A stretch of 64,000 nucleotides of DNA from Candidatus Aquidulcis sp. (GCA_020723345.1 DYJA01000005.1:1-64000), one strand, 5' to 3'. Counted from the stretch's first letter, positions 7,010 through 50,117 are shown. Numbers and translations: made by a program. The notes: generated from the letters alone by a model not told the origin.

Positions 7010-7436
7010 TGCGTTCGCTCTCCTTCACAACAGCGTCAAGTCTTGTTTTGATTCGTACCGAGTCTTTGGGGTTTTGCAACGCGTGTTCCCAAATCCGGAT
7101 CACAGTCCATCCATCGTCGCGCAATTTGCGGTTGGTTGACCGGGCAAGCGCGATATTGCGTTCGATTTTTCGTCGCCAATATTTTCGGTTCGTCGCAGGC
7201 AACTTGCGACGACAATGCGGACAACCGTGCCAGAAACAACCATCAACAAAAATAGCCAACCGGCGGATCGGAAAGACCACATCGGGCTTGCCAACAACAT
7301 CAGCGGCGTTCTTTTTCCATCCTTTCAAGCGCATTGCCGCGAGGATCGAAAATAGCCGTCGTTCAAGGCGCGTGTCTTTTCCCTTGACGGCTTGCATCGT
7401 CTTTCGGCGGTCGGCAGGTTTCAGGTTGTCAACCAT
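6960..7436 (-). CDS. vsr: very short patch repair endonuclease (Vsr)
   Basis: A 158-residue Vsr endonuclease, which nicks at T:G mismatches arising from deamination of 5-methylcytosine. Family signatures seen are AVKGKDTRLERRL near the N-terminus, GKPDVVF with the catalytic Asp, FVDGCFWHGCPHC with zinc-site residues, and the GWTVIRIWEH motif. The length is typical. It lies 6 bp after the C5 methylase stop, as expected for a companion that repairs damage at the methylated site. Confidence 0.93.
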   Translation of the reverse strand: MVDNLKPADRRKTMQAVKGKDTRLERRLFSILAAMRLKGWKKNAADVVGKPDVVFPIRRLAIFVDGCFWHGCPHCRRKLPATNRKYWRRKIERNIALARSTNRKLRDDGWTVIRIWEHALQNPKDSVRIKTRLDAVVKESERNERKSRKGSSRKSPNS

Positions 7437-7442
7437 TTTCGA

Positions 7443-8585
7443 TCAAGCCAACGCGAATTGACGCGAGTACTTTTCAACCAATGGGTTTAGCGCGTGCGCG
7501 GCAATCCACGTAATGGCAGGCACGCATACAGCGTCGCCGAAACCCGTGAGCGCTTGCACGCCGTTTACAGTGATTAGGTAATCATCGGGGACGCCTTGAA
7601 GGCGCGCGTATTCTCGCGGTGTCATCGCGCGCATTTTGATGTTCCCCATCCCCGCTTGAATCAGGAATTGCTTTCCGCTTCCGCCAACCGCGGTGCGAAG
7701 GCATCCCGACAAGTCATCGTCGCGCACTTCGGCTCTTTGCGCTTCTACGCGGCGGCGACGGAAAAAAGTACGGTAGGTGATTTTGTTCTCGTGGATGAGT
7801 TGCTCCACGCGTTCGCGGTGAGAAGAATCCATCATTTGCAAATGACGTTTGACTTCTTCTTCCGACCACCATCTATCATCCGCGTCGTCCAACCGTTCAA
7901 CGATTTCAGATAAGCCGCTGACACGCAACGGCGGCGGCTTGGGCAATTCAACGTAGAGCCAATTCAAGTCAGTGTTGACTAACAGACTTGTTCGAAGATG
8001 ATCTGATAACAACGATTTTGGACGGCTCAGTATGGATGGCAGACTTTGCTTAGAATCTCCAAATCTGGAACCGACAAGAAAAACTCGCGGGCGACTTTGC
8101 GGCGTGAAACTCTGCGCGTTCAGCGTAAAAACATCGCAAGCATACCCGAGTTCGTTGAGTGCTTGAACCGTAAGCCGAAAGTCTGCGCCTTTGTTTGAAT
8201 ATAGCCATCCGGGCACATTTTCGACGAGGATAAGCGGCGGCATAGATTCGCTTTGCGTCTTGAGGATTCTGACAAATCCCCAGAATGCGCTAGAGTGCTT
8301 TCCGCTGATGCCATTCATATTGCCCGCGAGAGACAAATCAATGCATGGGAAGGAACAAGTAGCCAAAGTGGTTGTTGGCACAGAGCCGGGCTCTAATTCA
8401 AAAATATCTCGGACCAGATAGTGCGTGCCCGCGTCAGGAAAGAACGCGCGGTACATTTCAAATTTCTTTTCGGAGATGTCGTTGGCAAATGCGACGCGCC
8501 AACCGCGCGGTTCTAACCCCATCCGAACCAAGCCAATTCCTGCAAAGTATTCTGCTACCGTCAAGGGTAATTGGGAATCTATCAT
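7443..8585 (-). CDS. DNA (cytosine-5-)-methyltransferase
   Basis: A 380-residue type II C5 methylase. Motif I is at the N-terminus (EYFAGIGLVRMGLE), motif IV is CSFPCIDLS with the catalytic Cys, motif VI is LVENVPGWL, and motif VIII is SFTPQSRPRVFLVG. Motifs IX-X (ARLQGVPDDY and GFGDAVCVPAI) close the protein. The PC-I-D variant of motif IV, where Q is more usual, is worth noting. It opens a vsr/DUF4928 cluster and is preceded by another methylase. Confidence 0.93.
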   Translation of the reverse strand: MIDSQLPLTVAEYFAGIGLVRMGLEPRGWRVAFANDISEKKFEMYRAFFPDAGTHYLVRDIFELEPGSVPTTTLATCSFPCIDLSLAGNMNGISGKHSSAFWGFVRILKTQSESMPPLILVENVPGWLYSNKGADFRLTVQALNELGYACDVFTLNAQSFTPQSRPRVFLVGSRFGDSKQSLPSILSRPKSLLSDHLRTSLLVNTDLNWLYVELPKPPPLRVSGLSEIVERLDDADDRWWSEEEVKRHLQMMDSSHRERVEQLIHENKITYRTFFRRRRVEAQRAEVRDDDLSGCLRTAVGGSGKQFLIQAGMGNIKMRAMTPREYARLQGVPDDYLITVNGVQALTGFGDAVCVPAITWIAAHALNPLVEKYSRQFALA

Positions 8586-8631
8586 CGTAAGACCATTTCC
8601 AATCTCAAGTGTCTTTCGATTGTACTATACT

Positions 8632-9513
8632 TCAATCGCGTGTCCTCGGTTTCTGAAAAATCGAAATATACTCGTGCGCCTTGTTGATCCGAAACACGTA
8701 CGGATAACCAAGCGGGCGCATGTTGTTGTACTCGTGGCGGCGATCCCAAATAATCAGATCGTCAAAGATGAAACCAATCTCCTCCATCTTGCGCGCGAGA
8801 TCAGAATGGAATGGATAGAACTTGTCTTTTTTCCGCAAGTCCATCACGACGACGGCGCAGTATTTGCGCGGCTTGAGCGCGTGCAGTACGGGACGGAAAA
8901 TCTCTGCCAGCGCGTTCAAGAATTCGTCATAATCCGCGATTTTCCCTAGATCGAGTTTGGCGTCTCCATAATGCCGAATCTCTTTGTAATCGGCGGTGCG
9001 TTTTTGCAGCAACACATCCCAGTACGGCGGCGACGTGATAACCAAGTCTACCGAATTGGGCGACACGTACTTGAGCAAGTTGCGCGCGTCGTCGCAGTAA
9101 ACCTTGCTCGTGCGCGCTTGCGTACTGAACAACTCGCGCTGCCCCAATCGCGTTTCGGCAACCGTCACGAAATCTGGCGCAACATCAATTCCGATTCCCG
9201 TTTTGTTGAGGCGATCCGCCGCGATAACCGTCGTCCCCACGCCGACGAACGGATCGAGAATTGTGGAATCTCCCGGCGCGGTGAAACATTCGATCAACCG
9301 TTGCGCGAGTTGAAGTGGGAACATCGCGGGATGTCCCAACTCCATTTCCTCTTTTGACTTTTTGATGTCGCTCCAAATACTGATCGAATATTTCGTCCAC
9401 GTTTTGCCGTCGAGTTGATTCGCCCGCCGTTCGCTTCGTTTTGTTGCGACGGTGGCAGGTATAGCAACCGGCGCGACTAGCAACTCCGCTTTGGTTTCTT
9501 TTACACGTCTCAC
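8632..9513 (-). CDS. site-specific DNA methyltransferase (N4-cytosine or N6-adenine)
   Basis: A 293-residue exocyclic-amino methylase. DPFVGVGTT (SAM-binding motif I) comes first at about residue 87, followed by the catalytic TSPPYW at about 160. A GTG start at 9511-9513 is preceded by a purine-rich AGGGGGC ribosome site. It lies 46 bp before the C5 methylase gene, so this island codes for two methylases with different chemistries, perhaps one per strand of an asymmetric site or two overlapping systems. Confidence 0.85.
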   Translation of the reverse strand: MRRVKETKAELLVAPVAIPATVATKRSERRANQLDGKTWTKYSISIWSDIKKSKEEMELGHPAMFPLQLAQRLIECFTAPGDSTILDPFVGVGTTVIAADRLNKTGIGIDVAPDFVTVAETRLGQRELFSTQARTSKVYCDDARNLLKYVSPNSVDLVITSPPYWDVLLQKRTADYKEIRHYGDAKLDLGKIADYDEFLNALAEIFRPVLHALKPRKYCAVVVMDLRKKDKFYPFHSDLARKMEEIGFIFDDLIIWDRRHEYNNMRPLGYPYVFRINKAHEYISIFQKPRTRD

Positions 9514-32948: not shown

Positions 32949-32985
32949 GGCAGCGGAAATCAAAAGTACAACTTTGGACCACCCG

Positions 32986-33072
32986 ACAAAGGCAAACCCT
33001 CCGAAAGAAGGCGACGCAAAGCTAAGGGTCTAAAGCGCAAGTCGATTGCGCCATGATCGCCCAGCCGCCGAA
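32986..33072 (+). ncRNA. cyclic-di-GMP-I (GEMM) riboswitch
   Basis: The RNA has the order of GEMM-I conserved elements: AAAGGCAAACC, then CGAAAG in a tetraloop, then GCGACGCAAAGC, then GGGTCTAAAG, a GC-rich second stem (GCGCAAGTCGATTGCGC), then CATGATCGCC and CCGCCGAAG closing P1. The match to the family consensus is extensive. It lies between a promoter and a terminator/antiterminator in the leader of the small secreted-protein gene. Confidence 0.88.
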
Positions 33073-33192: not shown

Positions 33193-33585
33193 ATGAAAAA
33201 ACTATTAGTTGTGCTCCCACTCGCCGTGTTGCTTTTCGCGTCGATGCTCACCATCGTCGGCGCCGCGATGGATGACGAAGATCCGAAACTCTGCGTCGAG
33301 GGCAAATGGTTACTCGTGAATGCCGCTCCCGTTTCGAGCATCCGTGTAACCGTGCCTGAAGATGCGCGGTACGGCAATCAGCAACAAGGTGGCTGCACGA
33401 CGCCGGGACCTAACGTGCCGCTGATCACCGCCGTCAGAGAACGTGGCGAAAGACACGTGATGCGCGTCTGGGTCGACGGCGCGCAAGCCAGCAAACCAAC
33501 GGTCACGGCTGCGTACGGCGCACAGACCCAGGTCAAACGCAACAACGGTCGCGGCAATCTCAACTTTATCTTCTTCGTCAAGTAA
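33193..33585 (+). CDS. small secreted protein under c-di-GMP riboswitch control
   Basis: A 130-residue protein with a clear signal peptide (MKKLLVVLPLAVLLFASML, cleavage near the GAA-MDD junction). The mature part is about 105 residues with two Cys and no recognised domain. AGAGGTC precedes the ATG, and upstream in-frame codons lie in the riboswitch terminator, which excludes an earlier start. Control by c-di-GMP suggests a role in matrix, adhesion or surface change, by analogy with other riboswitch targets; the function itself is unknown. Confidence 0.75.
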   Translation: MKKLLVVLPLAVLLFASMLTIVGAAMDDEDPKLCVEGKWLLVNAAPVSSIRVTVPEDARYGNQQQGGCTTPGPNVPLITAVRERGERHVMRVWVDGAQASKPTVTAAYGAQTQVKRNNGRGNLNFIFFVK

Positions 33586-33616
33586 CCACAAACCGTGGGA
33601 ACAACTCATCGCAGCG

Positions 33617-33646
33617 AAAGGCAACCCCCCATTCGGGTTGCCTTTT
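33617..33646 (+). terminator. rho-independent terminator
   Basis: AAAGGCAACCC (33617-33627) pairs perfectly with 33635-33645, followed by a short T-tract. It ends the riboswitch-controlled unit. Confidence 0.88.
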
Positions 33647-33726
33647 CGTGTTTCCGCTTACCTGTAGTATAATCGAATCGAAATCGAGAAACCCGATTCC
33701 CCGACCCATTCCGATTTCAGGACACC

Positions 33727-36700
33727 ATGAGCCCAATGCCCAATCGATGTCCCAAATGTGGTCACGCCAATCCTCCCAACGTGAACGTGTGCGGTCAGTG
33801 CGCCGCGCCGCTCGTCCCCGTCTGTCCGCAGTGCGGATTTGAAAATCCGGCGAATTTCAAATTCTGCGGCAACTGCGGCGCAAAACTGGACGCGACGGCG
33901 GCGCGCATCGCGCCAACTGATTCGCGCGCTCACACCGCCGCGCCGATCCCTGACGCGCTCGCGCAAAAAATCTCCAGCGTCGGCAAACAGATCGAAGGCG
34001 AGCGCCGCAATGTCACCGTCCTTTTCTCCGACATCACCGGCTTTACCACCATCGCCGAAAAACTCGACCCGGAACAAGTCTACGATTTCATCGATAGCAC
34101 GCTCAAAGCATTCACCGCCGAAATCTACAAACACGAAGGAACGATCGACAAAGTTCTGGGCGACGGGATTATGGCACTCTTTGGCGCGCCGATCGCGCAC
34201 GAAGACGATCCGGCGCGCGCGGTGCGCGCCGCGTTGGGCATGCAAGATGCGCTCAAACGGATCAACGCCGATCTCGAACCGCGCTTGGGCATCGCGCTGC
34301 GCGTCCGGATCGGTTTGCACACCGGGACCGTCGTCGTCGGTAACGTCGGTTCCGATCTACACATGGAGTACACCGCGCTTGGCGACACGGTGAACGTCGC
34401 GTCGCGGTTGCAAAGCGCCGCCGAACCCGGCACCATCCTCGTCAGCCGCGCGGTGTACGAACCGACCAAGCCGCTCTTCGAGTTCCGCGATCTCGGCGCG
34501 CTGCGCGTCAAGAATCGCGTCGAGCCGGTGGAGATCTTTGAAGCGCTTGCGCCGCGCCAAGTCGCCGGACGCGTGCGCGGTGTGCCCGGCTTGAGCGCGC
34601 CGATGATCGGTCGCGAGGAAGAATTCGCGCGCGTGCGCCGCGCCGTGGACGATCTCGCCACGCATCGACGCGGGCGCATCGTGCTGGTGACCGGCAACGC
34701 GGGCATCGGCAAATCGCGTCTGACGAGCGAACTCAAAGGGTACCTCGCCAACAAATGGGCAACCGTGCTCGAAGGCGCGTGCCTTGCCTACGGTCAACCG
34801 GCGTACGGCGCATTTCTGCAAATTATCAAAACGTTGTTCGGGATCGCGGACGACGATTCGGAAGAAATCGCACGCGAAAAAGTCGAGCGCGTCGTCCAGG
34901 ATCTGCTCCCTGCCGGAGAATCGCTCCAAGTCATTCCGTATCTCGAACATCTTCTTTCGATACGGATCTTTGAAAAAGAAATGGCGACGCGCATTCGCCA
35001 TCTTGCGCCGCCGCAATTGCAGCAACAAACCTTCATCGCGATTCGCCAAGTGCTCACCGCGCTGGCGCAGGGCAAGCCGCTCGTTTTGATTCTCGAAGAC
35101 GCGCATTGGATCGATCACATTTCGCTCGATTTGCTGACATTCCTCTTGAGCAGCGTCGAGGACGTGCCGCTGCTGATTTACTGCATCTCGCGTCCGGCGG
35201 AAGGCACCGCCGCGCCCAAACTCTTGAAACTCGGCGGCGAAATGTACGCGTCGCATTTTCTGCACGTTCCACTGTCGCCGCTCTCGCACGCGGACAGTAT
35301 CGCGCTCGTCGATCTTTTGCTGACGATTCACGAATTGCCCGAAACGCTGCGCCATACGATTCCGCAGCGCGCCGAAGGCAACCCGTTTTATCTCGAAGAG
35401 ATCATTCGCATGTTGATCGACCGCGGGATCATCCGGCGCGGCGCAGCGCGCTGGGAAATGACTCCCGACGCCGACATCGATAATCTGCAAGTGCCGACGA
35501 CGCTGCAAGGATTGATCATGACACGCGTCGATCACTTGGGCGAAAGCGCGCGGCAAGCGATTCAATGCGCGGCGGTCGTCGGACGCGATTTTGGGTATCG
35601 GCTGCTCGAGCAAGTCGTCGAAGGCGTGCGCGATCTGCCGGAGGACGTGCAGGAATTGGAAGAACGCCAACTCGTCACCCGGCTCGCGCCGAACGGCGAC
35701 GCGCATTTTCAGTTCAATCACATTTTGATTCAAGAAACGGTGTACCACAGTTTGCTCGTGCGGCGTCGCGAATATCTCCATCACAAGATCGCGGCGAGCA
35801 TCGAAACGCTCTTCCGCGACCGGCTGGAAGATCAACTCGAAGCGCTGGCGTTTCACTACGCCGCGAGTCAAGATTTGGATCGCGCGCTGCCGTACGCGAT
35901 TCGCGCGGGGAAACACGCGGCGGCGCATTTCGCGAACGCGCAAGCGCTGCAACACTATCAACGCGCCGCCGAATTTTTGACCAAGACGCATCCCACCGCG
36001 CAGCAAAAGATCGAAACGTACACCGGCTTGGGTTCGGTGCAGACGTTTTCCGGCGATTACGCCGGCGCGACGACGTCGTATCTCATCGCGCTCGAAATGG
36101 TGCGCGCCGCCGGCAAGTCGCTGGAAACGACGCGCGCAAGCGCGGAGGCGATGCGCTGCATCGGGCGCGTGGGCGAACGGCGCGGCGATTACGCGGAGGC
36201 GCTGCGCTGGCTGGAGAACGCGTTGAAAGAAATCGAACCCGACCCGGATCTAAAATCGGTGGAACGGATTCGCATTTTCAACGACATCGGCTGGGTACGT
36301 TATCGCTTGGGCGAATTCGATCAAGCATTCGATTGGGCGATGCGAACGCTGCAAATCGTCGAGGGCACGGAGCATTACAACGAGATGGCTTCGGTGTACA
36401 ATCGCTTGGTCGCGCTCTTCCGTCGCAAAGACGATTGGGATCGCGCACGCGCGTACGCCGAAAGAGGACTGCGCCTGCGCGAACGCATCGGCGATCTTCA
36501 GGGGATGGGACAATCGTATAACAACATGGCAACGATGGAGTGGGAGCAAGGCGAATGGGAAAACGCGCGCTTGCACCTGGAGCGTTCACTTGACATCAAA
36601 CAAAAAATAGGCGATATTGAGGGCATCGCGCGGCTCAACAACAACCTCTGCGAACTCTACCGGGAGAAAGGCGATTTTGCGCGCGCCATCGAGCCGGGCG

Positions 36701-37263
36701 AACGCGCGTTGCGGATCGCCGAAAAAATCAAGCACAACAATATCGTCTGCTTGGCTTTGGCAAATCTGGCGCACGTCAGAATTTTGCAGAACGAAGATGC
36801 GACGGCGGTTTCGCTTTTGACGCGCTGCCGCGATCTTGCCACCGAAACCGGCTCGAAAGAGCGAATCGCCGAAGCGCAGTGGCTCCTCGGCGAAGCGTAC
36901 CTGGGTCTCGCCGAGTTGGATGCCGCGCAAGCCGCCGCGGAACAGGCGCTGGCAATCGCGACGGAAATGGGGCGGCGGCTCTACGAAGGCAACGCGTTGC
37001 GAACGCTGGGCAAGATCGCGCATCGACGCGCGGAGCGCGCGACGGCGGAAGAATATCTACAACGCAGCATCGCGGTGTTAGGCGCGTCAAAAAATCGATT
37101 TGAACTGGCAAAGTCGCAATATCAACTCGCGTTGATTCACCGCGACGAAGGCAAGCCCGATCATGCCCGCGCAACTTTGGAGCAAGCATTGAGCGTGTTC
37201 ACGCAACTCGGCGCGGAATTCGAACGCGCGCGCACGCGCGCGGAATTGGATCGGTTGGGATAA
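33727..37263 (+). CDS. class III adenylate cyclase fused to AAA ATPase and TPR domains
   Basis: A 1178-residue signalling protein. Two zinc ribbons (CPKC...CGQC and CPQC...CGNC, residues 8-50) precede a class III cyclase domain (95-275). Metal Asp residues D102 (FSDITGF) and D146 (LGDGIM), substrate-binding K142 and D220, and transition-state N223 and R227 are all present, so an active adenylate cyclase is predicted. Walker A GNAGIGKS (323-330) and Walker B LVLILEDAHW follow, then an AAA winged region and about ten TPR-like repeats to the C-terminus. A TATAAT box lies at 33668-33673. The next gene, 7 bp away, encodes a cyclic-nucleotide-binding phospholipase. Confidence 0.92.
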   Translation: MSPMPNRCPKCGHANPPNVNVCGQCAAPLVPVCPQCGFENPANFKFCGNCGAKLDATAARIAPTDSRAHTAAPIPDALAQKISSVGKQIEGERRNVTVLFSDITGFTTIAEKLDPEQVYDFIDSTLKAFTAEIYKHEGTIDKVLGDGIMALFGAPIAHEDDPARAVRAALGMQDALKRINADLEPRLGIALRVRIGLHTGTVVVGNVGSDLHMEYTALGDTVNVASRLQSAAEPGTILVSRAVYEPTKPLFEFRDLGALRVKNRVEPVEIFEALAPRQVAGRVRGVPGLSAPMIGREEEFARVRRAVDDLATHRRGRIVLVTGNAGIGKSRLTSELKGYLANKWATVLEGACLAYGQPAYGAFLQIIKTLFGIADDDSEEIAREKVERVVQDLLPAGESLQVIPYLEHLLSIRIFEKEMATRIRHLAPPQLQQQTFIAIRQVLTALAQGKPLVLILEDAHWIDHISLDLLTFLLSSVEDVPLLIYCISRPAEGTAAPKLLKLGGEMYASHFLHVPLSPLSHADSIALVDLLLTIHELPETLRHTIPQRAEGNPFYLEEIIRMLIDRGIIRRGAARWEMTPDADIDNLQVPTTLQGLIMTRVDHLGESARQAIQCAAVVGRDFGYRLLEQVVEGVRDLPEDVQELEERQLVTRLAPNGDAHFQFNHILIQETVYHSLLVRRREYLHHKIAASIETLFRDRLEDQLEALAFHYAASQDLDRALPYAIRAGKHAAAHFANAQALQHYQRAAEFLTKTHPTAQQKIETYTGLGSVQTFSGDYAGATTSYLIALEMVRAAGKSLETTRASAEAMRCIGRVGERRGDYAEALRWLENALKEIEPDPDLKSVERIRIFNDIGWVRYRLGEFDQAFDWAMRTLQIVEGTEHYNEMASVYNRLVALFRRKDDWDRARAYAERGLRLRERIGDLQGMGQSYNNMATMEWEQGEWENARLHLERSLDIKQKIGDIEGIARLNNNLCELYREKGDFARAIEPGERALRIAEKIKHNNIVCLALANLAHVRILQNEDATAVSLLTRCRDLATETGSKERIAEAQWLLGEAYLGLAELDAAQAAAEQALAIATEMGRRLYEGNALRTLGKIAHRRAERATAEEYLQRSIAVLGASKNRFELAKSQYQLALIHRDEGKPDHARATLEQALSVFTQLGAEFERARTRAELDRLG

Positions 37264-37270
37264 CGACGGC

Positions 37271-38947
37271 ATGAAACACGGTCTACGCAATATTCCATTT
37301 TTCGCCGGACTGGACGACAACGTCCTGGAGGCGATCTCGCGGCGTTTGCAACGCGAGCATTACCACAAAAGCGCGGCGGTCTTTTTGGAAGACGAGCCGG
37401 GCGATTGCATGTACATCATCGAAAGCGGACAAGTCAAAGTCGTCGCCGAGCGCGGCAATCAGGAAAAGATTTTCGGCTATCTGGGTCCCGGCAACTTTTT
37501 CGGCGAAATGGCGCTGCTGTTGGGCGAACGGCGTTCCGCCACCGCGCGCGTCGTGATTGACGCCGATCTGTTGGTGCTGCGGAAAAATGATTTCGACGAG
37601 TTGCTGGAGATTCATCCGCAGATCGCGCTGATGATGTCGCAGGAACTGGGTCGCCGCTTGACGCGCTCGAATACGTCGCCGATCCTGCGCGAAGAGTTCA
37701 ACATCGTGACCGCGCTGGGCGCGGCGACGCCGACGCTCGCGCGCAACCTGGCGCAAGTGACCGGCGAAGCGGTCAGTATCCTCGATCTCGGTGGCTTGGC
37801 AAACATCAGTCTCGATCCCGCCTCGCTGCGCCAAGGCAACGTGACGCTCGTGCGCGGCGCAGATATTTTGGAACCGGAGACGCTCGCCGACCGGCTCAGT
37901 CAATTGGTGCAGCAATATTATTGGGTGCTTCTCGCGGTCGCGCCGTACGAAACGCCGTTGACGCTCAAAGCGATCGAACTCGCGGACGTGACTGTCCAAG
38001 TCGGTGGAAGAGAACCACCGTGGATCAAGACGGTTGCGCCGAAAGGTTTTTGGCGCGTCGACGCGCAGGCGCAATCGATTCAGCGGCTCGCGCGGCGCAT
38101 TTCGCAACGCTTGGTCGGCTTGGCGCTCTCGTCGGGCAACGCGCGCGGCATGGCGCACATCGGCGTGCTCAAAGTGTTGGAAGCGGAAGGCATTCCGATT
38201 GACATGCTCGCGGGGACGAGCGCGGGCTCGGTCTTTGGCGCGATGTACGCCGCGGGCAGATCGATCAACGAAATGATCGAATTCGCCGTGAATGTGCAAA
38301 AGCAGTATAATTTTGTCAGCGGCTTTCAATACTGGGATTTTCGTCTGCCGCCGCGCACCGGCTTGATCAAAGGCAACGTCGTTTTGAACTATTTGCGCCA
38401 TTGGACGTTGGACAAGACGTTTGACCAATTGAACATCCCGTTGTATATTATCGCTGCCGACCTGATTTCCGGCGAAGAGATTGTGTTCGATCACGGACCC
38501 GTCGCCGAGGCGGTGCGCGCGAGTATGAGCGTGATCGGCGTCTTTGAACCCGCGCCAATTGCCGGGCGTTTCCTGATCGACGGCGGGTCGGTCAATCCGG
38601 TGCCGACGCAACTTTTGGCGGACAAAGGCATCAGCATCATTTTGGCGAGCAACGTGATTCCGAGTTTGGAAGATCGTCTCCATCGCCGCGAACTCAAGCG
38701 CGAAGGCAAACTGCCGAACATGATCGGCATCGTCAGCGGCGCGATGGAAATCATGGAGAGCGAGATCATCAAATCGCGCATGGGACCCGTCGATATATTG
38801 ATTCAGCCGGATATCGCGCGTTATGGAACAATGGAGTACGACAAGGCGCTGGAGATCATCAAGCGCGGCGAGGAAGCCGCACACGCCCAGATTCAGGCAA
38901 TCCGGCAGCGTCTTGCGCCCAATCCACGCAAAAGACCGCAAGTCTAG
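37271..38947 (+). CDS. cyclic-nucleotide-binding patatin-like phospholipase (NTE type), copy 1
   Basis: A 558-residue protein. A cNMP-binding domain (about 1-125) has a phosphate-binding cassette with E79 and R88 (FFGEMALL...RRSAT), the residues that usually hold cAMP or cGMP. A linker with Rossmann-like pattern follows, then a patatin domain: oxyanion segment GNARGMAHIG (289-298), nucleophile S317 in GTSAG, and D437 in DGG. Such proteins resemble neuropathy-target-esterase lysophospholipases. It starts 7 bp after the cyclase gene, implying that the cyclase product may control it. Confidence 0.92.
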   Translation: MKHGLRNIPFFAGLDDNVLEAISRRLQREHYHKSAAVFLEDEPGDCMYIIESGQVKVVAERGNQEKIFGYLGPGNFFGEMALLLGERRSATARVVIDADLLVLRKNDFDELLEIHPQIALMMSQELGRRLTRSNTSPILREEFNIVTALGAATPTLARNLAQVTGEAVSILDLGGLANISLDPASLRQGNVTLVRGADILEPETLADRLSQLVQQYYWVLLAVAPYETPLTLKAIELADVTVQVGGREPPWIKTVAPKGFWRVDAQAQSIQRLARRISQRLVGLALSSGNARGMAHIGVLKVLEAEGIPIDMLAGTSAGSVFGAMYAAGRSINEMIEFAVNVQKQYNFVSGFQYWDFRLPPRTGLIKGNVVLNYLRHWTLDKTFDQLNIPLYIIAADLISGEEIVFDHGPVAEAVRASMSVIGVFEPAPIAGRFLIDGGSVNPVPTQLLADKGISIILASNVIPSLEDRLHRRELKREGKLPNMIGIVSGAMEIMESEIIKSRMGPVDILIQPDIARYGTMEYDKALEIIKRGEEAAHAQIQAIRQRLAPNPRKRPQV

Positions 38948-38953
38948 TCGCGG

Positions 38954-39006
38954 GTTCGTAGTAATCGCTTCCAGCGGTCAATGCGCTTGAAGCGCATACT
39001 ACGAAC
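38954..39006. repeat. REP-like hairpin between the two patatin genes
   Basis: GTTCGTAGTA (38954-38963) pairs perfectly with 38997-39006. Inside, ATGCGCTT (38981-38988) pairs with AAGCGCAT (38990-38997) around one base, and CGCT/AGCG forms a second small stem. It begins seven bases after the stop of copy 1. The GCGCTTGAAGCGC style resembles palindromic repeats of other genomes. Confidence 0.75.
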
Positions 39007-39060
39007 GACACAGGATTTCGAATGAACTACCAGTCCACCCTTCCGGGAGACACATCGTAG

Positions 39061-40731
39061 ATGAGAGAGCATCTCCGTTCGATTCCCTTTTTCAGCAGTC
39101 TGGATGATCAAGCATTAGACGTTCTCGCGGGACGCCTGCAACGCAAGCACGTTCATAAAGGCGCCTCCGTTTTCCTGGCGGGCGAGCCGGGCAACGAAAT
39201 GTACATCATCCGCAGCGGGTTGGTCAAAATCATCTCGCAGTATGAAGAAGAAGAACGCTTTATCCTCTATTTAGGTCCGGGCGATTTTTTCGGCGAGGGC
39301 GCGGCGCTGTTCGGCGGGAATCACTCGGCGAGCGTGTACGTCGTCATCGACGCGGAACTGCTCATGTTGTCCCACGACGATCTGACGCCGTTGATGGCGC
39401 GCTATCCCGAAATGGCGCGCACGATCATCCGCGAACTCCACCAACGTCTGCGGCTCTCGCTGCGTTCGCCGATTCAAACCAAGCAACTGACCGTGATCGC
39501 CTCCATCGGCGATGCGACGCCGCTGCTCGCGCAACATCTCGCGCAGGTCTCCGGCGAGGACGTGCTGTTGCTCGATCTGAACGATCAGAGTCACGAACTC
39601 GACCGCGCGGCGCTGCGCGACGGTCACGTCTATCTCACCCACACCGAGCGCGCGCTGAATGCCGAAGAGCTGCCGGAACACATCAGCCAACTGATCAAAC
39701 AATACTACTGGGTCGTCCTCTGGGCGGTGCCTGACGAAGTTCCCCTGACGCGCAAGGCGCTCGACCAAGCCGATCTGCGCGTGGCATTGGGCGCGGCGTT
39801 CGCGCAGCCCGCGCACCGGCTTGTGCCCAACCATCTGTACGCCGACGACGACGTGACGGCAATCCACCAATTGGCGCGGCGGCTGGCGCGCCGCCAAGTG
39901 GGCTTGGCGCTCTCCAGCGGCAACGCGCGCGGCATGGCGCACATCGGCGTGCTCAAAGTGCTGCGCGAGGAAAACATTCCGGTGGATATGATCGCCGGCA
40001 CCAGCGCGGGCGCGCTCTTCGGCGCGCTGCACGCCGCCGGACGCTCCGTCGAGGAAATGGCAGAGTTCGCGCGCCGCGTGCAGAATGAATACAACTTTTT
40101 CACCGGCTTTCGCAATTGGGATTTTTCTTTTCCGCCGCGCTGGGGATTGATCAAGGGCAATATGTTTTTGAAACAACTCCAGCAATTGCTGCCGGGCTTG
40201 ACCTTCGAGGAACTTGAAACGCCCCTCGCCGTCGTCGCGGCGGATCTGGTTTCCGGCGAAGAAATCGTCCTCGAACGCGGTCCGCTGCCCGAAGCGCTGC
40301 GCGCGACGATGAGTATGGGCGGATTTCTCGAACCCGCGCGCCACGATGGTCGTCTGCTGATCGATGGCGGCGCGGTCAACCCTGTCCCAGGTCAAATCTT
40401 GGCGGATCGCGGCATGAACATTATCATCACGTCGAACGTGATCCCAACTCTGCAAGAGCGCATGCGCTGGCAGCGTGGTCAGATCGCCAAAGACAAATCC
40501 TCCCTCGTCGACATTATGCTGAACGAGCGCGAAATTATGGAGGGCGCAATCATTCGCTCGCGCATGCGCCCCGTGGACGTCGTGATCCAACCGGACGTCG
40601 CGCGCTATCACGTTCGCCAGTACGACAAAGCGCATGAGATCATTCAAGCCGGAGAAAACGCGACGCGGCTCCAAATTCCTTACATTCGCAAACTGCTCGC
40701 GCCGCGTCCGCGCAAGATTCCGAGCGCGTAA
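39061..40731 (+). CDS. cyclic-nucleotide-domain patatin-like phospholipase, copy 2
   Basis: A 556-residue paralogue of the preceding gene. The patatin dyad is intact (S315 in GTSAG, D435 in DGG) with the oxyanion segment GNARGMAHIG. In the cNMP domain E79 is kept, but the cassette reads GGNHSAS, so the Arg expected at position 88 is His. Binding of cyclic nucleotide is probably weakened or altered. A GGGAG site precedes the ATG. The two copies probably arose by tandem duplication and then diverged in sensing. Confidence 0.92.
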   Translation: MREHLRSIPFFSSLDDQALDVLAGRLQRKHVHKGASVFLAGEPGNEMYIIRSGLVKIISQYEEEERFILYLGPGDFFGEGAALFGGNHSASVYVVIDAELLMLSHDDLTPLMARYPEMARTIIRELHQRLRLSLRSPIQTKQLTVIASIGDATPLLAQHLAQVSGEDVLLLDLNDQSHELDRAALRDGHVYLTHTERALNAEELPEHISQLIKQYYWVVLWAVPDEVPLTRKALDQADLRVALGAAFAQPAHRLVPNHLYADDDVTAIHQLARRLARRQVGLALSSGNARGMAHIGVLKVLREENIPVDMIAGTSAGALFGALHAAGRSVEEMAEFARRVQNEYNFFTGFRNWDFSFPPRWGLIKGNMFLKQLQQLLPGLTFEELETPLAVVAADLVSGEEIVLERGPLPEALRATMSMGGFLEPARHDGRLLIDGGAVNPVPGQILADRGMNIIITSNVIPTLQERMRWQRGQIAKDKSSLVDIMLNEREIMEGAIIRSRMRPVDVVIQPDVARYHVRQYDKAHEIIQAGENATRLQIPYIRKLLAPRPRKIPSA

Positions 40732-40768: not shown

Positions 40769-42028
40769 ATGTCTCCAGCCACGCGCGTCCAATCGAATCC
40801 AAGCGATGAATCCCAGTCCCAGGTGGCATACCTGGAACAACGGATCGCCGCGCTCGAAGCGCTGCAAGAAGTCGCGCTGATCTTTTCCTCCGAGTTGCAA
40901 CTCAATCGCCTGCTCGCGCTGATTCTGTCCAGCGCGGTGGACGTGATGAAGGCATCCGCCGGTTCGCTCCTCTTGTACGACGACGCGACGAAAGAATTGG
41001 TCTTTCAAGTCGTGCAGGGCGGCGGCGGCAAAGCCCTGCGGCAAAAACGGATCAGGAGCGACGAAGGAATCGCCGGCTGGGTTTTTTCGCGCGGACAGCC
41101 GGTCATCGTTCACGATACCAGCATGGATCCGCGCCACTTGATTCGGATTGACGAGGCGCTGCGTTTTCACACCGCCGCGATGGTCGCCGCGCCGCTGATG
41201 TACAAAAGCAAACCGATTGGCGTCATCGAGATCATCAACAAAAAATCACGCGAACAATTCAACGAGCAAGATCAAGATTTGCTGATGGCGTTCGCCGCGC
41301 AAGCCGCCGTCGTGATCGAAAACGCGCGGTTGTACCAGCAAGTCGTCGCCGAACGCGACCGCCTGCTCGCCGTCGAAGAACAAGTGCGCCGCGAACTCGC
41401 GCGCGAACTGCACGACGGACCTTCACAACTTTTGTCGGCGATCATCATGGGCTTGAAATTCCTCAAGCAAGTGATCGCGCGGCAGCCCGACCGCATCGAA
41501 ACCGAACTCGGCGAACTCGAACGCTTGTCGACGCAAGCGCTCCACCAAGTCCGCAATATGCTGTTCGATCTGCGTCCGGTCGCGCTGGAGACGCAAGGGC
41601 TGCGCGTCGCGCTCGAAATCTACGTCGATCGGCAGAGCGAGACCGACGGTTTGCAACTCCACCTGGATATTGACGCGCTGACCATGCGTTTCCAACCCAA
41701 GGTCGAAGCCGCGCTCTTCTCCATCGTTCAGGAAGCCGTCGGCAACGCCAAGAAACACGCGCAACCGAAAAATATTTGGATCACGGCGCAGAGGCAGGAA
41801 GACGCGCTGACCTTGAGCGTGCGCGATGATGGACGCGGTTTCGATCTAGCAAACGTCGAAGAATCGTTCGCGCAGCGCGGCAACCTGGGTTTGCTGAATA
41901 TGAAAGAACGCGCCGAGATCGCCAACGCGACGCTCACGATCAATTCCAAGCCGGGCAAAGGCACGCTCGTCACTCTCGTCATCCCCGTCGGCAAAGCGGC
42001 GCAACATTCGACGCGCTTGTTCAGTTGA
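40769..42028 (+). CDS. GAF-domain sensor histidine kinase (NarL-partner type)
   Basis: A 419-residue cytoplasmic kinase with a GAF domain (about 45-185), a HisKA_3 dimerisation helix with H215 in ARELHDGPSQ, and an HATPase_c domain with GRGFDL and GLLNMKERA. No TM segment is present, so it may sense a soluble signal. I start at MSPATRV, after the end of the patatin gene; an upstream ATG at 40634 overlaps that gene and is unlikely. No response regulator is adjacent. Confidence 0.88.
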   Translation: MSPATRVQSNPSDESQSQVAYLEQRIAALEALQEVALIFSSELQLNRLLALILSSAVDVMKASAGSLLLYDDATKELVFQVVQGGGGKALRQKRIRSDEGIAGWVFSRGQPVIVHDTSMDPRHLIRIDEALRFHTAAMVAAPLMYKSKPIGVIEIINKKSREQFNEQDQDLLMAFAAQAAVVIENARLYQQVVAERDRLLAVEEQVRRELARELHDGPSQLLSAIIMGLKFLKQVIARQPDRIETELGELERLSTQALHQVRNMLFDLRPVALETQGLRVALEIYVDRQSETDGLQLHLDIDALTMRFQPKVEAALFSIVQEAVGNAKKHAQPKNIWITAQRQEDALTLSVRDDGRGFDLANVEESFAQRGNLGLLNMKERAEIANATLTINSKPGKGTLVTLVIPVGKAAQHSTRLFS

Positions 42029-42076: not shown

Positions 42077-44104
42077 ATGTTGATGAAATTTTCTCCAACC
42101 CGTCCACGCGTTTTGCTCTGCGGCACATTTCTCCTCGCGCTCGCACTCTTTTTCTTCTTAACCTCCGCCACGGACGCCCAAGCACCCACGCCCATCAACG
42201 TTCCCATCGCGCTCGCGCCGCTCCAGCGCGACACGCCGATTGAACTGACCGCGCTCACGCTCGACGCGGACATTAGCGAAATTCAAGGGCGCACGATCAT
42301 CAGCGGCAACTCGACCTTCAAACTTCACAACACAGATCGAATGAACGATTTGCAGGTCGCCGTCGGCTTTCCAACCTGGTCAGGCGATCCGTACGCGTTC
42401 GAGCCCGCGCGGTTCGACCCGTTCGTCGTCAGCGTCGACGGCGTCAAAGTGAAAACGCTCAATCCCGGTCGCGCCGATCTAAAAATCGGCAGCACGACGC
42501 GCGCGGTGGATTGGTACACCTTCACGCTGACAATTGCGGGCGACGAAAAGAAAACCGTGCGCTACGATTTTCAGCAAGACCTGGGCGATGGCGCGCTGCC
42601 GCGATTCACGTACGGGCTTTTTCCCGCGTTGAGTTGGAAAGGCAGCATCGGCAGCGCGCGTCTGACGCTGAATTTTCCCGGCGCAACCGCGCTCGAACAA
42701 ATCGTCGCGTACGATCCGCCGAATCCAAATTTCGACGGGCAGAGTTTGACCTGGCTCTTTGCGACGAAAGAACCCGCCGCGAATCCGACGCTCACTTTTC
42801 TGCGGATGTCGCTCTGGAACGATCTGCTGACGAAACGCCGCGACGCGCAAACCAACCCGAACAACGCGAACGCGCGGCTCGCGCTCGGCAATCTCCTGCG
42901 GCAACTCGCGCAACTGGATTCGCCGCGCCGCGACAGTTTTTACGGGCAAGCCGTCGCCGAACTCGAAACCGCCGTGCGTCTCGATCCGAACAATCGCGCG
43001 GCGCGGAGCGCGCTCGCCGCGCTGTACGAAGCGCGCGCGGGCGCGGCAACCGGTCCGCGCAACGTCGCGTACGTGCAACTCGCCGTCGCGCAGTGGGAAA
43101 TGCTGCAGAACGACGCGAACGCGCGCAAGCAACTCGCGGAAGATTACTTTTATCTCGGACTCGACGCGCAGACACGCAACGCGTTCGCCGATGCCGCGAC
43201 GTACTACGACAAAGCGTCCGCGCTCGCGCCGAACGGCGCGGGACCTTTATTTACATCGGAGCGACTGACCGCGCAGCGCCGCGCGCTGAACCTCGCGTGG
43301 GCAAACGCGTTGCTCGATCAGACCGACACGAGTACGGCGATTACCAAAGCGCGCGCCGCGCTCGGCGACAAATTCATGGCGATGTTCACGCCGCCGTTGT
43401 TCTACGTCACGCGCGTCCAAGTCACGACCGCCGCGCAAACGCGAACGCTGACGTTCGCGCTCGCGCCGCTTTTGCGCGACGAGACGCAGAACGAATTGAG
43501 CGGCGTCGTCTCGACGCTGCGCGCGGCAGGCGCGGACGCGAATATCGCCAACGACGGCGCGAATATTTTGCTCACGCTGGCGGTGCCGCACCAGTCGCCG
43601 CTGCAACTGCGCGATCAAATGCGCGCGCTCGCGCAGACCCTGCCCGACCGCGCCGAGTGGTCGCTCGTGCGCGCCGCGCTTTCGCCAACCGACATTGATT
43701 GGGACGAAGCCGACGAATGGCTCACGCGCACGACGCATTATCGCGAAGGCGTCGACTTGTCTCCGGCGTGCCGCGCGTTCACCGCGCAACTCGATCCGCT
43801 CGCGCAAAATCTGAAACCGCTGGAAACCGCGTCCGCGAACGACGACGAAGCGCAACTCAAACGCGCGCTGCTGAAATACGCGCAGCGCGGTTGGCAATCG
43901 GCGTTGGCAAACGGACGCGCGACGTATCGCGCGGGCGCAGAGGAAGACCGCGTCGAACCGTGCGCGGCGAAAATGCTCGCCTGGTCGTCGTCGGCGTGGC
44001 GACCGGAGCGCGTCGCGGTGATGGTCGGCGTGATCGAATTAGTGGGGATTGTGGTTTTGGCGGCGCGGTGGATGAGGAGAAAAAGGAAAACGCCAGACCT
44101 GTGA
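42077..44104 (+). CDS. exported TPR-repeat membrane protein, 3' end provided by the IS
   Basis: A 675-residue protein. A signal/TM at residues 11-30, a beta-rich domain to about 230, TPR-like repeats (about 255-420), and a C-terminal TM (about 645-665) with an RRKRK anchor are seen. The last residues PDL and the stop codon fall in the left inverted repeat of the IS that begins at 44095. Function unknown; it may be a surface scaffold. It is possible that a few native residues were lost. Confidence 0.75.
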   Translation: MLMKFSPTRPRVLLCGTFLLALALFFFLTSATDAQAPTPINVPIALAPLQRDTPIELTALTLDADISEIQGRTIISGNSTFKLHNTDRMNDLQVAVGFPTWSGDPYAFEPARFDPFVVSVDGVKVKTLNPGRADLKIGSTTRAVDWYTFTLTIAGDEKKTVRYDFQQDLGDGALPRFTYGLFPALSWKGSIGSARLTLNFPGATALEQIVAYDPPNPNFDGQSLTWLFATKEPAANPTLTFLRMSLWNDLLTKRRDAQTNPNNANARLALGNLLRQLAQLDSPRRDSFYGQAVAELETAVRLDPNNRAARSALAALYEARAGAATGPRNVAYVQLAVAQWEMLQNDANARKQLAEDYFYLGLDAQTRNAFADAATYYDKASALAPNGAGPLFTSERLTAQRRALNLAWANALLDQTDTSTAITKARAALGDKFMAMFTPPLFYVTRVQVTTAAQTRTLTFALAPLLRDETQNELSGVVSTLRAAGADANIANDGANILLTLAVPHQSPLQLRDQMRALAQTLPDRAEWSLVRAALSPTDIDWDEADEWLTRTTHYREGVDLSPACRAFTAQLDPLAQNLKPLETASANDDEAQLKRALLKYAQRGWQSALANGRATYRAGAEEDRVEPCAAKMLAWSSSAWRPERVAVMVGVIELVGIVVLAARWMRRKRKTPDL

Positions 44105-45414
44105 GGTCGACTTTTGCAGCACTTTCCCAAGTGAATAATTCCAAGTAGCTCACTGCCGCACCAGCGGAAAACGGTGTACAATCAGAGTGCCGATGTTCAG
44201 GCAGGAGGTGTCCGATGATTCCGCTGGTCGAATTTCCCGAGTTGGTGCAACACTACGCGCCGTACTTTCAGCAAGTCTTTTCCCCGGAGGCGTTCGTTGA
44301 ATTTGAACGATACATCAGTGGTTTGATTGTGTCCGAGAACAAGACGGTCGACGGCATCAATCGTCTCTTCGTGAACGAGAGTCGCAACCAGAGCAGTCTC
44401 AATCGCCTGCTCACCCAGAGTCCCTTCTCGCTCGCAGACTTGAATCAAGCGCGGTTAGCGGTGTTGCGCGATTTACCGGGCACGCAGATCAAGCGCAAAG
44501 GCGTGCTCAGCGTCGATGATACCTTGCTGGCGCATAGCGGCGAGCACTTTGACCAGATTGCGAATCTGAAAGACCCCGACAGTGGTCACTATGTCTGGGC
44601 GCACGATCTGGTCACGTTGCACTCTAGCGATGATGACACGGATTATCCGATGCGCTTTCAACTCTGGAAGCCCACGGATGTCGACGCGTTGGAAAAGGGT
44701 CTCCGCGCCGCTGGCTTCCCGCTGAAGGAGAGCAAACAGACGCTCAAGACCACCGCCCCGCACAAATGGCGCAACTACTTGCAAGGGATCTGGCGACGGC
44801 ATCAGGCCCAACCTGAAGTGGCGACGCTCTACCAAAGCAAACTTCTCATCGCCGAGCAACTGCTCCAGAACTGGGTTCAGACCAAACCGGCTCACCCACT
44901 CCCCGTCACGTTTGACAACTGGTATACGCAACCGGGGTTCTGCCAGTACCTGGACGAGACCTTGCACCTGGACTCTGTGGGCACGTTGGCGAGTAACGAC
45001 CAAGTCCTGCGGCGCAACGGGTTACAACGCTTGGATGAATTTGCCGAACATCTGAAAGCCGAACATCAGGCGGCGGTGAAGCACGGTAAACCTTTGGTCT
45101 TTCAACCCATCACGATTCACTACAAGGGTGAGAAAGAACAGTACTATAGTTACTGTGCGCCCCATCGCATCGAAACCTTTGGTCGGCAACGCCTCGTCAT
45201 CAACTACCGCGAGGCCGACCTGAGCGATAGGTGGACGCGCTCTGCGCATCCTAACTTTTGGAAACTCTGAGCAGTGACTCATCCGACTCACGCCCCTGTG
45301 AGTGCGGAATGATTTCGTATTGCCCGCGAACGGAGATTTTCGAGCGTCGCAGGTTCGTTTTTCGGCTACTGGGGTATTCACTTGGAAAGGTGCAAAAGTC
45401 GACCTGACAGGTCT
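44095..45414. mobile_element. insertion sequence, about 1320 bp, IS701-like
   Basis: The ends are inverted repeats: 24 bp beginning AGACCTGT on each side match at 23 positions, then a 10/7-nt variable block, then AAGTGAATA on both sides. One transposase gene fills the interior. The bases outside the ends show no clear target duplication. Confidence 0.82.
44215..45270 (+). CDS. DDE transposase
   Basis: A 351-residue transposase, of IS701 / DDE_5-like type. The first catalytic Asp is probably in VLSVDDTLLAHSG and the second in VTFDNWYTQPG; a later Glu cannot be fixed by eye. An AGGAGGTG ribosome site lies just before the ATG. The length is within the range for this group, so the gene may be functional. 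Confidence 0.82.
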   Translation: MIPLVEFPELVQHYAPYFQQVFSPEAFVEFERYISGLIVSENKTVDGINRLFVNESRNQSSLNRLLTQSPFSLADLNQARLAVLRDLPGTQIKRKGVLSVDDTLLAHSGEHFDQIANLKDPDSGHYVWAHDLVTLHSSDDDTDYPMRFQLWKPTDVDALEKGLRAAGFPLKESKQTLKTTAPHKWRNYLQGIWRRHQAQPEVATLYQSKLLIAEQLLQNWVQTKPAHPLPVTFDNWYTQPGFCQYLDETLHLDSVGTLASNDQVLRRNGLQRLDEFAEHLKAEHQAAVKHGKPLVFQPITIHYKGEKEQYYSYCAPHRIETFGRQRLVINYREADLSDRWTRSAHPNFWKL

Positions 45415-47728: not shown

Positions 47729-48895
47729 TCAGATGAGATATTCCTGTTTTGACTCAGCGAGCCGCCGCGATACCTGAACACTTTTCGATTCAATAAATTT
47801 TCCAAGAGGCACTGCGTTTAACTTGCGCTTGAGATAATTCTCAATGGCACCATGTTCCATGTCAAGCAATTCGTGCTTGAAACCGAGTGTACGATTCAGT
47901 TCACGAACGACTTGTTGGGGCCAATAGCCCGCACTCATCTGAACGATGGTACCATTCACATCCCGCGCCGATTCTTCAATCCGACTTTTGACGCCAATAC
48001 GATCTACGATGACAATCGTCGCCATAAACCATTGTGAACGTCCCATTGATATTTCGCGCTCGAACCGAGTTACCTTATCCAAAGAGATTTCGGGATTACC
48101 TCTCCCGATGAAACCAATATCGAATCTTACACCCTTGCCTGCTTCATACAACAAGGTCGCATCGCTTTCTCGTTTTTCATTGCGCGATGCAAGCCAGAAG
48201 ACACGATTCGGTTGTTCTGGTTGCTCGGATGTTACAAATTTGAATCCCAAGATATGCAATAACGACCCCAGAATTAATTTCTCAAAGAGTTTCCCGTATG
48301 CCGATTTTTCCGAACCACGCACAGCGAGCGTTTCCGCGCCAACTGCATTGAGCAAATAAGTCAGAAACAACCAGTTGATTTCCGCCCTAACTCCGGAATC
48401 CATTTTCAGCGTACCCGACAACTCTCCATGGTTACGCTTGTGATTAGCAATAACATCACGACATGCTTCAACGTACCGGTCACGGTATTCAGCGAGAGCG
48501 TTCGGATTATCGCGCAGCACGTTTTGAAACGCTTTGTCCGTTAGACCGAGCGCCCATTGCGCGATCCACCGTTCCGTTTTGGTCAAATGTTTGCGTGTAA
48601 GAATCTCCGTTGCAAAACCAGGCAAACGATTGACAAAATCATCAGAGGCGGTTGAACCTTGCAGAAACAAATTGACCAACGCGAGATTTAGCGCGGCAAT
48701 TCGACGTCGCGTCAGAACCTCGGTTGAGTCGCGGAGATTCCGCCCGGTCAACACATCCAACACCACGCCCCGCACGACATCCATACCGATTTGCTGAACG
48801 AAATCACTGCCGCTGGCAGAAAGCAATTTCAGCGTTGCAGGTGACATCAATTGGCTGAGATTCGTAACCTCGGACGGCTTTGTCTTTTTGGGCAT
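47729..48895 (-). CDS. probable type II restriction endonuclease (CfrBI-like)
   Basis: A 388-residue protein following a DNA methylase by 13 bp. A helical N-terminal two thirds leads to YGKLFEKLILGSLLHILG, then ESDATLLYEAGKGVRFDIGFIGRGNPEISLDKVTRFE, which could hold a PD-(D/E)xK-like core with Asp and Glu. The overall look is that of the CfrBI-type family, but I assign this from memory of the family pattern. Its position supports the endonuclease role. Confidence 0.6.
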   Translation of the reverse strand: MPKKTKPSEVTNLSQLMSPATLKLLSASGSDFVQQIGMDVVRGVVLDVLTGRNLRDSTEVLTRRRIAALNLALVNLFLQGSTASDDFVNRLPGFATEILTRKHLTKTERWIAQWALGLTDKAFQNVLRDNPNALAEYRDRYVEACRDVIANHKRNHGELSGTLKMDSGVRAEINWLFLTYLLNAVGAETLAVRGSEKSAYGKLFEKLILGSLLHILGFKFVTSEQPEQPNRVFWLASRNEKRESDATLLYEAGKGVRFDIGFIGRGNPEISLDKVTRFEREISMGRSQWFMATIVIVDRIGVKSRIEESARDVNGTIVQMSAGYWPQQVVRELNRTLGFKHELLDMEHGAIENYLKRKLNAVPLGKFIESKSVQVSRRLAESKQEYLI

Positions 48896-48908
48896 GGTGT
48901 CTCCTTAT

Positions 48909-50117
48909 TCACAAGAGAATATCTTGGACTTGAATCGGCGCGCAGTTGATTGTGAACACCTGAGCCGCATTTTCCCCAAGCCACGTCTTGGCTTCGGTCC
49001 GAATGATATCAACATAGTTGGAGTCTTGCTCAATGAGAACAAAACGGCGCTTGAGTTTTGTCGCCGCCTTTCCAACAGTTCCGATACCTGCGAACGGATC
49101 CAAGACGACGTCTCCCTCGAATGAATAGTACGCAATTACTTTTTCAGCCAATTCCAACGGGAAGATCGCGGGATGACGCTTGTCGTGCGCGGGCTTGATT
49201 CGCCAAATGTTAGTGTGCTCATAACCATCGCCAATCCGCGAGGACTTGACGCATTCTGGCTTGGGATGTGCGCGAATATTCCAGTCAATCAATTTGTCGG
49301 TATGTTTGCGATAGACTAGGATGTATTCGGTAACAGGCACCGGCTTGTATTGCAGCGCATTCCGATCAGCCGCAAACCGTCGGCCGCGTCCGGTTGCCCA
49401 GCCCGCGCCTTCGGGCTTGACCCAGATGATGTCGTCAATAAAATCATAACCTTCTTCGACAAAGAGACGGTGTACGTCAAATGGCACCGCAATTCGTTGC
49501 GACGCTTCATTTCGATTTGCGCGCCGTACGAGCACAGGCGAAATGTTCATTACGAAGAATCGTCCTTCGGCAAGAACGCGATGAACATTCTGGATGATTT
49601 TGCGGAGTTTGAGCAGATATTCCTCGTAGGTCACATAATCGGTGTACTCGGGTCGCGCATTGTAGTACGGCGGTGAAGTGAAAACCAAATCAACGCTACC
49701 AGCGGGCAACTCTTGCAGAATTTCCTCCGAGTCTCCAAGCGCGATCGTATTGCGTAGCGCCGAAAGCGAATAACTGCCATTGCGCGGCGAATATTTCTTT
49801 TCGGCTGTACCATTCCGTCCGAGCAAGCGGGCCTCCAGGACAGCGGGCGCAGTGGATTTGTTCTCGGAAATAAGTGATGTGCGCGCGTCAATCACGACTT
49901 CGCCGATCCGCTCGTGATTGGATTTGTTCAACAAAGGCACGCGCCAGACATGATAGCGGTCATCCACCTCAGGCAAACCAAACCCAACCGCTTTCTGCAA
50001 TTGCGCTTGCTCAAGCCAAGCAAGCGCAGCGCGTTTCGCGGATTGTACGTCGAGAACGGAATAATTTCGTTGCGTTGCTACAGTCGGTGTTTTACGCGCC
50101 ATCATTCCCTCGCACAT
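48909..50117 (-). CDS. DNA methyltransferase (N4-cytosine or N6-adenine), modification partner
   Basis: A 402-residue methylase with catalytic TSPPYY at about residue 130 followed much later by the SAM motif [12 protein letters not shown] near 345, the reverse of the gene at 8632. An N-terminal region of 100 residues is family-specific. Of several in-frame ATGs near the start none has a well-placed ribosome site; the second pair (MMARKT) is also possible. It precedes the probable endonuclease. Confidence 0.85.

Follow-up and report, generated by a model that had tools for sequence, protein, structure and literature searches.

A predicted STAND-like adenylate cyclase beside an NTE-like, cyclic-nucleotide-binding patatin: a conserved gene run in Candidatus Aquidulcis and its order

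That cyclic-nucleotide domains regulate NTE-type phospholipases is so far no more than a suggestion, made for PNPLA6 (PMC9025805), and a locus of Candidatus Aquidulcis sp., where a predicted adenylate cyclase lies 7 nt from an NTE-like phospholipase, raises the question of whether a bacterial cyclase gates such an enzyme and, if so, in the service of defence or of ordinary lipid signalling. The window, by which we mean the whole 64,000-nt stretch that we analysed (GCA_020723345.1, DYJA01000005.1:1-64000), is part of a 6.34-Mb draft genome (G000, contig C111) that is 95.5% complete. Our analysis favours, with moderate confidence, a signalling operon that is passed on vertically, is coupled to a sensor kinase and uses cAMP from a STAND-like adenylate cyclase to gate an NTE-like phospholipase. 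The phospholipase is small, with one clean cyclic-nucleotide-binding (CNB) domain, and the locus has built-in controls in the form of a natural Arg-to-His paralogue (patatin B) and a relative lacking the cyclase (G019). This combination of a small one-CNB enzyme, an adjoining cyclase and natural controls allows a direct test of whether nucleotides gate an NTE-like lipase.

A previous reading of the sequence alone had singled out three genes at this locus, and their coordinates, plus-strand orientation and domain content were all borne out by Pfam. The cyclase gene (33727..37263, +) is separated from the start of patatin A (37271..38947, +) by the 7-nt gap that had been claimed, and the second copy downstream, patatin B (39061..40731, +), is a real paralogue with 51% identity to the first. 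The conserved gene run is longer than this trio, since a GAF-HisKA_3-HATPase_c sensor histidine kinase (40769..42028, +, start read as ATG 40769) and a TPR protein of 675 aa (42077..44104, +) come next in the same direction and belong to it. The kinase is an orphan, with no response regulator adjacent to it in the window. The TPR protein, the last of the run, has a weak TPR match and a position that is conserved in the window's family; a signal-like N terminus and a hydrophobic C-terminal segment, read from its sequence, suggest that it is secreted or membrane-anchored. The five genes are presumably cotranscribed. Directly past them lies a DDE-type transposase-like ORF (44215-45267, +), beyond which the window's PUA/diacylglycerol kinase flank starts. 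The window also contains, on the minus strand, a set of type II restriction-modification genes (6065-9513; DUF4928/REase_II, a C5 methylase and one more methyltransferase) and a CfrBI-like restriction endonuclease with an N6/N4 methyltransferase (47729-50117), the latter not kept beside the operon in relatives.

The cyclase protein (1178 aa) combines an N-terminal double zinc ribbon, a class III nucleotide cyclase domain (Guanylate_cyc, residues 94-264, scoring 103 bits in Pfam against a cut-off of 21.9), an AAA_16 ATPase (residues 294-484, 94.3 bits) and seven TPR_12 stretches. Its motifs FSD102, DK142xxGD146G and GD220TVN223xxxR227 supply the complete class III adenylate cyclase residue set, namely two metal Asp residues, the Lys/Asp adenine pair and the Asn and Arg transition-state residues. 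We take this set (Asp102, Lys142, Asp146, Asp220, Asn223 and Arg227) to be the classical adenylate pattern; all six residues, and the Walker motifs, are invariant in the linked relatives that are long enough to read. The presence of every catalytic and base-selecting residue, and their retention in these relatives, is what would be expected of the active class III cyclase that had been predicted. The Walker A (GNAGIGKS) and Walker B (VLILEDAHW) motifs, together with the TPR stretches, are STAND-type features and suggest that the protein is a STAND-type sensor ATPase.

Patatin A consists of a cNMP-binding domain (residues 1-133), a ParA/MinD-like pseudo-ATPase domain (about 145-263) and a patatin domain (282-548), as judged from Pfam, models and fold matches. 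Its cassette, GEMALLLGERRSA, has the normal GE...RSA form, and the cassette Gly-Glu and Arg are kept in all patatin A homologues, whether or not a cyclase gene lies beside them; the normal cyclic-nucleotide cassette ascribed to this protein is thus apparent both in the window and in all its homologues. An NTE-like motif set, in which the CNB GE...R(S/T)A is followed by the patatin GxSxG and DG(G/A), is found in the window protein and nearly all homologues, and the catalytic Ser and Asp are conserved in the homologues. A model of the protein (pLDDT 85, pTM 0.79) has a CNB domain, an alpha/beta middle domain and a patatin domain. The CNB domain is predicted to be close to cAMP-bound CRP-type proteins (Z about 20, rmsd 1.6-1.8), and the best fold match of the lipase domain is PlpD (Z 32.7, rmsd 2.3, 34% identity), with lower matches to CapV/CapE (Z 22-25). 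The middle domain (37688-38116, +), modelled alone (pLDDT 90.6), matched ParA/MinD-type ATPases with modest TM-scores of 0.5-0.6, and a Pfam search, even at E 10, returned no family beyond a weak BcsQ match. Fold and sequence together suggest that it is ParA-like, and we read it as a pseudo-ATPase because Walker A is absent from its sequence. The position that we aligned by eye with CRP Ser128 and PycTIR Asn143 is occupied by Asn134 in the window protein and varies among homologues; its equivalence to CRP Ser128 is our assumption. A reading of this Asn as a sign of cUMP specificity was dropped, since it is not conserved in relatives, and the sequence of patatin A does not fix the identity of its ligand.

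Residue comparisons tell a different story for patatin B, whose cassette is FGEGAALFGGNHSASV: in all six orthologues, His takes the place of the Arg in contact with the cyclic phosphate. It keeps the catalytic GTSAG and DGG motifs, and with them the Ser and Asp of the dyad, and sequence divergence in its CNB and middle domains exceeds that seen in patatin A (mean identities of 67.7 and 49.6%, respectively, against 80.2 and 68.3%). The proposal of two cyclic-nucleotide-gated patatins therefore fits patatin A, with its normal cassette, but not patatin B, which, having lost the phosphate-binding Arg, probably does not respond to the ligand that gates patatin A and may act as a partner or constitutive subunit.

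Upstream of the cyclase lie a c-di-GMP-I riboswitch (RF01051, 67.5 bits; 32981..33072, +) and, between the two, a gene for a small predicted secreted protein (33193..33585, +), homologues of which are placed alike in relatives. The riboswitch is upstream of the cyclase in seven genomes (the window, G008, G013, G014, G015, G018 and G030), in G008 ahead of the N-terminal part of the cyclase. The order riboswitch, small gene, cyclase is found in the window, G013, G014, G015, G018 and G030; the last belongs to another family and has the three together although its cyclase and patatin are apart, and G019 lacks all three at once. The riboswitch, small gene and cyclase thus look like a cassette. Between the small gene and the cyclase, however, there is a terminator-like hairpin with a T run (33616..33646, +; -22 kcal/mol over a 55-nt stretch, z -4.0), with equivalents just ahead of the cyclase in G007, G009, G013, G014, G015 and G018 and a different strong hairpin with a T run in G030. 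It is followed by a putative -10 element of the operon promoter, TATAAT (33668..33673, +), recognised by its match to the consensus, and CCTGTAGTATAAT or a close form occurs at this position in most family members. Since these elements are found in the window and most of its f1 relatives, the cyclase operon is probably transcribed from a promoter of its own, and the riboswitch is probably a separate neighbouring unit; c-di-GMP was dropped as a candidate for the main control of the cyclase because they separate the two, although some transcripts may read through.

We followed the gene neighbourhood across an order sample of 20 genomes from 13 genera and a class sample of 199 genomes. Adjacency was counted by tblastn on extracted contigs, because greedy gene calling missed genes lying under antisense ORFs, such as the patatin in G012. 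Full-length patatin A is present in 19 of the 20 order genomes, the exception being a 70%-complete genome. The kinase lies directly downstream of the patatins in all 19 and the cyclase directly upstream of them in 18, a count that includes two draft genomes in which the contig ends within the cyclase gene (G010 and G011) and one with cyclase parts on two contigs (G008), and that does not represent 18 independent events given shared ancestry. The neighbourhood, a check that the sequence-only reading had proposed, is thus conserved within the order. The nineteenth genome is G019, of the same genus as the window, where Fpg and patatin A lie within about 40 nt of each other with no cyclase between them; the patatins, kinase and TPR protein are retained, and the assembly, 87% complete, contains no close cyclase elsewhere. 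In family f1 the run is flanked by Fpg and diacylglycerol kinase/PUA genes, in f2 by HAD, DnaJ and TrxR genes. The linkage has thus persisted while the genes around it were rearranged, and this survival of gene order places the array far beyond chance.

Outside the order, 18 class genomes carry a full-length patatin. A sensor kinase adjoins it in 14 of them (the same GAF kinase in seven, an OmpR-type regulator with a HAMP kinase in six, and a HAMP kinase in one) and thus in 33 of 37 genomes overall. The cyclase adjoins it in only two (G164 and G179); its adjacency with patatin A is also seen in two further families, whose flanking genes differ. G030 and three f30 genomes encode cyclase orthologues that do not neighbour a CNB patatin of this kind, the f30 gene overlapping one for a MalT-like ATPase-TPR protein. 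When 36 cyclases were placed in a tree, the linked ones fell into a 21-row group (support 92/83, which is not strong) together with the unlinked proteins of G030 and f30, so the linkage has been lost or gained on more than one occasion. Among 400 genomes drawn from across the phylum, only three had a full-length patatin (the window's own genome, one class member and G219), limiting this patatin largely to the class.

The unlinked cyclases, the cyclase-less G019 and the 16 patatins outside the order without an adjacent cyclase all count against a cAMP-gated operon; the genome G000 moreover yields seven matches to class III cyclases and about a dozen to CNB-like domains, so any cAMP may be shared beyond these genes. 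The main rival is that patatin and histidine kinase form the functional pair, the cyclase having been placed upstream secondarily and feeding a cytosolic cAMP pool or CRP-type regulators. It draws on the steadier adjacency of the kinase (19/19 within and 14/18 outside the order, against 18/19 and 2/18 for the cyclase), and on the way the cyclase travels with the riboswitch and small ORF in G030 and is missing with them in G019. We nevertheless consider it rather unlikely, since within the order the cyclase is linked as tightly as the kinase and is only 7 nt away in the window, the full cassette is kept everywhere in patatin A, and the cyclase linkage reappears in G164 and G179.

In the cAMP-gated operon that we favour, the STAND-like zinc-ribbon/AAA/TPR part would sense a cue and switch on the class III cyclase domain, which would produce cAMP. 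Binding of cAMP to the CNB domain of patatin A would then relieve inhibition of its Ser-Asp phospholipase, allowing cleavage of membrane (lyso)phospholipids. Patatin B would be a duplicate that kept the catalytic dyad and lost the phosphate-binding Arg, and the co-transcribed GAF kinase and TPR protein would tie the module to transcriptional or envelope control. The message-and-effector logic that had been proposed for these genes is supported by the linkage, the invariant catalytic and binding residues and the cyclase pair of G197 described below, but would not extend to patatin B, which lacks a normal cNMP cassette. The role of the operon is probably a housekeeping one, in internal lipid remodelling or stress, which fits its core distribution; a function in signal transduction fits the frequent sensor kinases beside the patatin. 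More tentatively, the locus could be a dedicated non-defence relay, from a NOD-like (STAND) sensor cyclase through cAMP to an NTE-type phospholipase, with a duplicate devoid of a nucleotide site and a kinase that reads or tunes the same membrane change. If true, this relay would be a minimal cyclase-to-NTE signalling circuit.

A sensor-cyclase-effector layout is also what would be expected of anti-phage abortive infection, in which phage would trigger the STAND-like part and a cyclic nucleotide would activate the patatins, killing the cell by membrane breakdown. CBASS and Pycsar also use patatin and CNB effectors, PADLOC gave low-specificity matches to PycC (up to 109 bits), PycTIR and CBASS phospholipases, and two restriction-modification systems lie elsewhere in the window. 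We regard this explanation as improbable, and the ordinary lipid signalling that had been offered as the alternative as the better fit. The PADLOC matches to PycC show only the shared class III fold. The patatin is core to the order (19/20 genomes), whereas Pycsar and CBASS have a patchy distribution in mobile defence islands, and the operon is flanked in relatives by Fpg, diacylglycerol kinase, PUA protein, HAD, DnaJ and TrxR genes. The restriction genes, considered as a possible defence island, do not accompany the operon there. No full-length relative was found on 72,556 plasmids, in 50,697 phage records or on viral contigs, collections in which Anaerolineae are poorly represented, so that this absence is weak evidence by itself. 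As in CBASS with CapV or CapE, a nucleotide-activated patatin phospholipase would be the output, but the cyclase is of class III rather than a CD-NTase, a separate CNB domain would read the nucleotide, and the patatin is nearer PlpD than CapV/CapE; patatins A and B scored 16.6 and 17.6 bits against the CBASS_lipase model (NF041079, cut-off 200), and the patatin 22.9 bits against DS2_1 (cut-off 400). Pycsar likewise encodes a class III-type cyclase and a CNB-domain effector side by side, but its effectors are of the TM or TIR type and not NTE-type patatins. A class III cyclase would not in itself be a novelty for such a system, as had been suggested, since class III catalytic motifs also occur in Pycsar cyclases (PMC11224242). 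The cyclase described here conserves the adenylate-type Lys/Asp, which speaks against Pycsar-type pyrimidine specificity, but because PycC clades vary in their base-selecting residues (PMC11224242), such a pattern is not decisive. An adjacent cyclase and CNB effector are not, on their own, a defence signature.

Least probable is that another cyclic mononucleotide (cUMP, cCMP or cGMP) serves as messenger with the relay logic unchanged, for which the class III motifs of pyrimidine cyclases (PMC11224242) and the by-eye placement of Asn134 speak, and against which stand the invariance of Lys142 and Asp220, the adenylate signature, in readable linked relatives and the variability of Asn134.

Among known proteins, the closest parallel to patatin A is found in the bacterial cNMP-binding patatins and NTE (PNPLA6), which likewise have a CNB region N-terminal to a patatin lipase, with three CNB domains in NTE against one here. 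The mycobacterial Rv2565 lies a few genes from the predicted nucleotide cyclase-like gene Rv2561, so there is a precedent for a cyclase-like gene near CNB patatins (Rv2564/Rv2565; PMC4886424). Our literature search found nothing direct on a cAMP-gated bacterial patatin operon; what is new compared with these patatins is the tight, order-wide operon with an adjoining class III cyclase, the duplicate that has lost its cassette Arg and the downstream kinase partner. The cyclase protein has the cyclase, AAA_16, TPR order and adenylate residue set of class III adenylate cyclases with AAA/TPR regulatory parts, a group related to human soluble adenylyl cyclase, to which it adds the double zinc ribbon and the conserved linkage to a CNB patatin. 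It scores 312 bits against the TOMM kinase-cyclase model TIGR03903, below the 706-bit cut-off. A related DZR-cyclase-AAA-TPR gene (33%) in G197 (L147:5282-9968, -) is separated by 7 nt from a CNB-SpoIIE gene whose cassette is normal. The gene order is reversed relative to the window and the output is a PP2C-type phosphatase, so the theme of a cyclase with a CNB output recurs, there with a regulatory output.
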